Source: Thiomonas delicata
GTDB taxonomy: Bacteria > Pseudomonadota > Gammaproteobacteria > Burkholderiales > Burkholderiaceae_C
Assembly: GCF_900088825.1 (NCBI RefSeq)
Contig: NZ_LT592170.1
Span: 474,972 to 538,971 of the forward strand
DNA: 64,000 nt
Direction of reading: 5' to 3'
Part shown: positions 56,622 through 57,050 of the stretch, piece by piece
Numbering within the stretch: the first letter of the stretch is position 1
Layout: each line of letters starts with the position of its first letter
Made by a program: the position numbers and the translations under genes
Notes under the pieces: generated by a model
Told to the model about the DNA's origin: nothing
Database searches by the model: none
What the model saw: only the letters and a program-made list of their open reading frames with translations

Positions 56622-56771
56622 GGTCGGGTTGCGGGACGCGGGCTTCGATCATTCTGAGCAGGGTTTTCCATGACGAGCAGGCGCATCGTTGAAGGTTAAG
56701 TGAGCGTTGACTCGCTTGGCCTGTGCGGATTTTTCAATGCCATTCACGTTTGCACAGATGTCAAGCCGGCC

Positions 56772-56959
56772 TGTGAATAACTTTGTGCATAGTTGGCTGC
56801 CGGCACCAATTCAACCCTGTGGATAATCATGTGTATAGAATTTAAGAATCCATTAGACTTCGCTAATAATCCTTAAATATCAACAAGTTGAGGTTGGTAT
56901 CTTCATGTTCTGCCTGTGATTTGCTTGCTGCGGTGCATGAGGTCGAGAAGTGTGCATAA
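56772..56959. other. candidate origin of replication (DnaA-box cluster and AT-rich stretch)
   Basis: The 429-bp non-coding gap between priA and hemE (56622-57050) holds five DnaA-box-like 9-mers, all in one orientation: TGTGAATAA (56772-56780), TGTGCATAG (56784-56792), TGTGGATAA (56818-56826, the perfect complement of TTATCCACA), TGTGTATAG (56830-56838) and TGTGCATAA (56951-56959). The block 56838-56885 between the fourth and fifth boxes is strongly AT-rich, as for an unwinding element. hemE flanks oriC in Caulobacter and Rickettsia. No dnaA gene is in the window, so a DnaA-titration or DnaA-regulated site is an alternative. Confidence 0.55.
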
Positions 56960-57050
56960 GCATGCACCGAGCTTGACATCTGGCCCCGATTCGGATGCGG
57001 GGGACCCGGCCCGGCACGCCCCGGGTCGCGCCTCGCACCGCGGCGTCGCG

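Follow-up and report, generated by a model that had tools for sequence, protein, structure and literature searches.

Chromosomal origins adjacent to hemE are best described in alphaproteobacteria. Cori of Caulobacter crescentus, located beside hemE, contains five DnaA boxes, one IHF site and a 40-bp AT-rich region, and the origins of Rickettsia and Wolbachia are also hemE-linked (PMC1914354; PMC numbers here and below are cited for the accessible part of each account), in line with the hemE linkage noted in a preliminary description of the locus studied here. Outside this group, the left half of E. coli oriC (gidA-mioC) combines DnaA boxes, an IHF site and an unwinding region, while the E. coli control locus datA contains one IHF site and DnaA boxes whose spacing to the IHF site matters (PMC10380432).

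For betaproteobacteria, the preliminary description held that oriC is usually next to dnaA. This agrees with Cupriavidus necator NH9, in which dnaA and three boxes lie at the putative chromosome 1 origin (PMC6379261), but less well with Cupriavidus metallidurans CH34 or Ralstonia pickettii 12D. In CH34, the skew transition is located ∼90 kb from dnaA, beside 213 nt that contain three perfect DnaA boxes (flanking genes unnamed in the accessible account); one perfect and three weaker boxes precede dnaA, and another four weak ones are found at 3.71 Mb (PMC2864759). For chromosome 1 of R. pickettii 12D, DoriC/Ori-Finder predicts an oriC with three DnaA boxes beside hemE and close to the minimum of the GC disparity; a second candidate, at dnaA, is 291 kb distant (PMC4403523). 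Linkage to hemE in betaproteobacteria is therefore not new in print, and this is the only such account found in a literature search outside subscription papers and DoriC. The exact c1 origin of Burkholderia cenocepacia was called unclear (PMC4948915), a Thiomonas gene map starts from an origin at THI0001, with no detail in the accessible part of the account (PMC2829063), and it was cautioned that not every DoriC site is the true origin (PMC13342612).

Here we examine a hemE-priA spacer in a Thiomonas-like genome of 3.84 Mb in 54 contigs (G000). The window is the whole 64,000-nt stretch analysed (C4:474972-538971). The label "Thiomonas-like" rests on the titles of the nearest PriA relatives, namely Thiomonas species and other Burkholderiales from the named collection, with at most 76% identity in the best segment. 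The spacer (Table 1), at 531.6-532.0 kb of contig C4, exactly fills the gap between the priA start (56621) and the stop of hemE (57051). Both genes are encoded on the minus strand, and the module within the spacer faces the hemE 3' end. The preliminary description had presented it as non-coding and AT-rich, with five DnaA boxes on one strand within 188 bp, one of them perfect, and an AT-rich block. These features are all recovered: GC makes up 53.6% of the spacer and 27.1% of the block, compared to 67.7% of the window, both flanking genes match curated models, and a scan for boxes (at most one mismatch to TTATNCACA) finds all five. They are arranged as two 12-bp-spaced doublets (56772/56784 and 56818/56830) and a single box (56951). 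One is identical to the perfect E. coli box, three match TTATNCACA, and the box closest to priA lies ∼150 bp from its start codon.

Table 1. Features of the hemE-priA spacer and its flanking genes (positions in the window)
Feature	Position	Strand	Remarks
priA, primosomal protein N', replication restart helicase, 762 aa	54333..56621	-	NF004067 E 1.5e-275; TIGR00595 E 3e-165, both above cut-off
hemE-priA spacer, whole module inside	56622..57050	.	429 bp, non-coding
DnaA box, second doublet	56772..56780	-	TTATTCACA; within conserved core CACAAAGTTATNCACA
DnaA box, second doublet	56784..56792	-	CTATGCACA, 1 mismatch
DnaA box, first doublet	56818..56826	-	TTATCCACA, perfect; 12 bp from partner
DnaA box, first doublet	56830..56838	-	CTATACACA, 1 mismatch
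AT-rich block, candidate DUE	56838..56885	.	27.1% GC
IHF-type site, perfect WATCAANNNNTTR	56878..56890	+	TATCAACAAGTTG; 110 bp from core box
DnaA box 1, single, hemE side	56951..56959	-	TTATGCACA; position conserved in relatives
hemE, uroporphyrinogen decarboxylase, 362 aa	57051..58139	-	TIGR01464 E 6e-121

The clustering of boxes is exceptional for this genome. Among 5000 first-order Markov copies of the spacer, four contained four boxes, and none contained five boxes or three perfect ones. The scan allowing one mismatch covered 1,016,629 bases of the same contig (it spans 430-800 kb save 1,034 bases; 74% of the genome lies outside it) and recovered 145 boxes, for which a simple Poisson sum gives 3e-6 expected clusters of five in 188 bp. 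No other 300-bp stretch contained three, so that the spacer has the intergenic cluster of at least three boxes expected of an oriC, and the scanned 1.017 Mb has no second one. Exact matches to TTWTNCACA number 56 genome-wide, versus 48 for a reversed-pattern control, indicating that boxes lack overall enrichment in the genome, and the spacer is the sole place genome-wide with three exact matches within 1 kb. Five further TTATCCACA sites (C4:170944, C4:946761, C5:3816, C5:211596 and C5:369663) are each located 208 bp beyond DnaA-model matches of identical score, and probably mark copies of a single insertion sequence that encodes an AAA+ helper.

A perfect IHF-type site (consensus as quoted in PMC10380432), overlooked in the preliminary description, lies at the edge of the AT-rich block. 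By nearest-neighbour energies, 56823-56902 is the least stable 80-bp segment (-91.3 kcal/mol) in 1.01 Mb sampled, and in 50-bp windows of the same scan the block is one of the four least stable loci. The corresponding 80-bp values for the rpmH-dnaA spacer (-108.2 kcal/mol) and the parS-bearing spacer upstream of gidA (-106.2 kcal/mol) are ordinary. The medians over relatives are close, at -101.8 for hemE-priA (n=72) and -105.5 for rpmH-dnaA (n=32, own spacer counted twice). Judging from its base composition and its place within the least stable 80 bp, the 27% GC block next to the boxes may be the easily unwound element expected of an oriC.

The order of the module (box, IHF site, ∼110 bp, core AAGTTATNCACA) is conserved in relatives. 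We compared 72 spacers (71 relatives and our own), the relatives being drawn from 80 loci, of which eight lacked a hemE match and one was cut. A perfect IHF site is present in 52 of these and absent in 20, against 1.2 expected from dinucleotide shuffles, while the strict core CACA[AG]A[GC]TT[AG]TNCACA is present in 61, and the other 11 carry a variant ending AGTTATCCACA. The 42 spacers containing both strict motifs have the first box 69, 77 or 78 bp ahead of the IHF site, and an IHF-core distance of 110-112 bp in 40 cases and 121 bp in two, a fixed spacing as expected of a datA-type locus. Since the spacer sequences are related, these counts do not represent independent events.

Compared with the systems above, the module resembles the Cori type in adjoining hemE and in combining DnaA boxes with an IHF-type site, but lies at the hemE 3' end and is flanked on the other side by priA rather than COG1806 or COG1253; Cori is also marked by CtrA sites. 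It shares with the R. pickettii 12D site its betaproteobacterial host and its position beside hemE, but the 12D site is a prediction only, and the accessible part of PMC4403523 gives no IHF site, geometry, wider conservation or second flanking gene. The module has the same three elements as the left half of E. coli oriC, with different neighbour genes and with its IHF site across the AT block from the doublets. The likeness to datA lies in the IHF site and its spacing to the boxes; unlike datA, which is found by glyV-X-Y and queG, the module is located beside priA and contains a strongly unstable block. No datA- or DARS-like locus in betaproteobacteria was found in the accessible literature (outside subscription papers and DoriC).

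A search for the array in related genomes, as proposed in the preliminary description, was positive. All 26 close (Thiomonas-like) relatives with a readable spacer have at least three boxes (3-6 each, four in 17), while the 45 more distant relatives mostly have two (31/45), the first often being TTATCCCCA (one mismatch), which restricts the five-box state to near kin. The array of a Thiomonas-like genome in two contigs (G337), whose dnaA and priA are separated by ∼90 kb, is nearly identical to that of the window, and another genome of the same genus (G325) has four boxes without a strict IHF site. In a second set of 30 priA loci, 27 gave a spacer, each with at least one box (just one in L182).

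More broadly, the CACARAGTTATNCACA pattern occurs, at any position, in 153 of 300 genomes of the order. Among 25 order genomes, chosen for having a pattern hit and mostly long contigs, the exact core pattern is found within 1 kb upstream of a PriA match in 11, from six families, and elsewhere in 14. In four genomes (G238, G249, G219 and G268), priA is 1.15-1.85 Mb from dnaA, and hemE adjoins the module in all four. The complete set of TTATGCACA, IHF site and TTATCCACA is present in the first three (1.19-1.85 Mb), while G268 (1.15 Mb) lacks a consensus first box.

Variant arrangements were also observed. Within one family of the order, the hemE-priA spacers of L147 (G007) and L148 (G141) contain the module twice, while L151 (G239) and L152 (G209) carry a like array upstream of hemE, as in hemE-linked alphaproteobacterial origins. 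At L316 (G319:C1:1789200-1790700), upstream of priA and without a hemE match, two IHF-type sites are paired with boxes (TTATCCACA and TTGTCCACA) at a distance of 110 bp each, which makes a doubled module; the rpmH-dnaA spacer of this genome has no box.

The preliminary description had suggested skew analysis, together with the location of dnaA and rpmH, as a check on the origin, and its outcome is divided: the module (531.7 kb) lies within the skew transition zone of the genome (about 490-683 kb on C4), but this zone also includes dnaA (654.9 kb, 123 kb from the module) and has two near-equal minima, one of them beside dnaA. We used GC3 skew, computed over the third codon positions of genes called heuristically and corrected for gene strand. 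The corrected skew has its global minimum at 490-513 kb, 19-42 kb from the module, a local maximum at ∼589 kb, and a second minimum at 647 kb, 115 kb from the module; the 520-531 kb segment to the left of the module already has mostly right-arm skew. KOPS-like octamers (plus/minus strand) number +4/-27 in 330-520 kb, +8/-4 in 520-588 kb, +1/-8 in 588-650 kb, +2/-2 in 650-678 kb and +18/-9 in 678-832 kb, with a cumulative minimum at 645 kb (-30), versus -27 at 519 kb. The global GC3 minimum and the KOPS bias in 330-520 kb count in favor of an origin at the module, while the minima at 647 kb (GC3) and 645 kb (KOPS), and the restriction of the five-box state to near kin, count against it.

The skew between the two sites is complicated by an accessory stretch (G000:C4:581.9-641 kb) encoding transposases, amidohydrolases, a porin, catabolic enzymes, GGDEF/EAL proteins and a NiFe hydrogenase, whose skew from ∼588 kb on is opposite to that of the surroundings. 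Transposase genes at 581.9, 583.9 and 585.4 kb coincide with the skew turn at 582-589 kb, which an insertion or inversion would explain, and the segment (∼582-640 kb) was probably acquired or inverted; no transposase was found among four ORFs examined at its far end. An ALIL pseudoknot (RF01497), which we take to be a frameshift element of IS3-type sequences, is present on the minus strand at L104:2946-3062 (about 574.9 kb on C4). With 575-652 kb dropped, the bootstrap changepoint falls at 442-519 kb (5-95%), compared to 439-655 kb with all genes kept, when 29% of replicates fall at 620-690 kb. Dropping the stretch thus favors the hemE-priA side, with room left for both the module and dnaA; the module itself is outside both the 442-519 kb interval and the 490-513 kb minimum.

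The dnaA gene (C4:653334-654740, minus strand) lies beside dnaN and gyrB, and its spacer to rpmH has one box in our genome, as in G325 and G337. In 28 other relatives, this spacer has two boxes in 21 cases, three in six and none in one, with at most one perfect box (29 dnaA loci came from one batch, in which three lacked rpmH; L229 and L232 start at dnaA). In aligned relatives the boxes flank the apparent dnaA promoter, and this arrangement of mostly two boxes suggests that they serve dnaA autoregulation. The single box here disfavors rpmH-dnaA as the origin, while the skew keeps it a candidate. The spacer upstream of gidA (C4:682214-682742) was also considered. It contains two parS-like palindromes at 682.3 and 682.6 kb (G000:C4:682274-682659), with gidB and parB (genes named by eye) beyond gidA, but no box with at most one mismatch. 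No dif-like site was found with an E. coli-like query at up to three mismatches. In another genome (G390), a further origin candidate is present 14.5 kb from dnaA, upstream of minC/minD (by eye), and consists of four boxes (three perfect) in 32% GC DNA, with an IHF-type site ∼65 bp before them (L229:14537-14824, C1).

The position of the module relative to the skew flip was also examined in relatives. Plain GC skew on 12-20 kb samples is noisy, and gene-corrected skew of four relatives is no cleaner; G312, G354 and G390 yielded no readable flip. In G306, sampled KOPS octamers number +7/-13 to the left of dnaA (1.52 Mb), +34/-10 between dnaA and priA, and +17/-6 beyond priA (2.07 Mb), placing the flip at dnaA, 0.55 Mb from the module. 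Plain GC skew is consistent with this, while the gene-corrected version is noisy, and ∼0.7 kb upstream of its dnaA match there are five boxes, of which one is perfect. G238 was read by the plus-strand density of the KOPS motif GGGCAGGGC among the matches listed, which number four in 0-0.6 Mb, 12 in 0.6-1.0 Mb, seven in 1.0-1.3 Mb and 60 in 1.38-2.98 Mb (20 of them to the left of the module at 1.847 Mb), with 14 in 2.98-4.19 Mb and a total of 97. These densities, for the matches listed, put the flip at about 0.6 Mb, away from both dnaA (0) and the module. The lack of minus-strand matches in 1.2-2.98 Mb, among those listed, fits this flip but may be a listing effect. The complete module of G238 appears to sit well inside one arm, less surely than it lies off the flip in G306.

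We favor the interpretation of the hemE-priA spacer as the chromosomal oriC of this Thiomonas-like genome, and give it about an even chance. The head-to-tail doublets near priA and the single box near hemE would be DnaA-binding sites flanking an IHF-induced bend, and helicase would be loaded, ahead of firing, where the AT-rich block next to the doublets melts. This interpretation accommodates the oriC-like anatomy, the IHF-type site, the conserved boxes, the location in the skew zone and the box-poor rpmH-dnaA spacer. The strongest point in its favor is that an origin is expected within 490-683 kb, where the module is the sole box cluster. What it fits poorly are the two near-equal minima in the skew and, as the strongest counterpoint, relatives that retain the module away from the flip, clearly in G306 and less surely in G238. 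An origin function of the homologous site in relatives would have corroborated it, and these two genomes came out against that. The module is therefore conserved even where it is probably not the origin, and seems to serve a non-origin role in these two genomes, unless their origin moved recently.

Such a role would be that of a DnaA-control locus of the datA/DARS type, in which the IHF bend would let the flanking DnaA molecules interact and change nucleotide state, or in which the boxes would titrate DnaA, with the origin located elsewhere. We consider this doubtful for the present genome. In its favor, the IHF-type site lies between DnaA boxes at a fixed spacing, as in minimal datA (PMC10380432), the full set is retained in three genomes with priA 1.19-1.85 Mb from dnaA, and the module lies away from the flip in G306 and, probably, G238. 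It does leave the skew transition zone of our genome without another box cluster to act as origin, the distance from module to dnaA varies widely between genomes, and the layout differs from the inverted DARS core. The association with priA could instead reflect a DnaA/IHF-controlled promoter region, whose nucleoprotein complex would tie priA transcription to the replication state. The exact core close upstream of PriA in 11 of the 25 order genomes, and the hemE-module-priA order in the four genomes with priA far from dnaA, point in this direction, but the pattern is elsewhere in the other 14, the like array of L151 and L152 is upstream of hemE, L147 and L148 have two copies, and a ∼200-bp array centred on an IHF site and an unstable block exceeds the needs of an operator; we regard this as unlikely. 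A pair of origins, at the module and near dnaA, with forks meeting in between, would produce a W-shaped skew, and the minima at 490-513 and 647 kb with a maximum at ∼589 kb, near the 593-kb midpoint of the two sites, have this form. Because the turn coincides with transposase genes, the four relatives sampled have no convincing W, and the rpmH-dnaA spacer has one box, it is very unlikely. Least probable of all is a relic, i.e. an ancestral origin or chance cluster with no present function: the ambiguous skew is compatible with it, nothing supports it directly, and relatives from several families retain both the sequence and the spacing.

In a further reading, a DnaA-IHF module joined to priA throughout Burkholderiales would act as a DnaA-control locus in most of the order, while the Thiomonas line would have added box doublets to it and recruited it as chromosomal origin, origin and control locus then being two states of one DNA module. 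This joint proposal is tentative, and we hold it to be rather improbable as a whole. The new elements here are the association of an IHF-phased module with priA, the breadth of its distribution and its occurrence away from the skew flip. A conserved DnaA-control site beside priA was not described in the literature accessible to our search (outside subscription papers).

The site at which replication starts in Burkholderiales is not fully settled, and the hemE-priA module offers one defined target of 430 bp. If it is the origin, then hemE linkage of oriC would span the alpha- and betaproteobacteria. If it is not, then many Burkholderiales would hold a conserved DnaA-control site beside the replication-restart gene priA.
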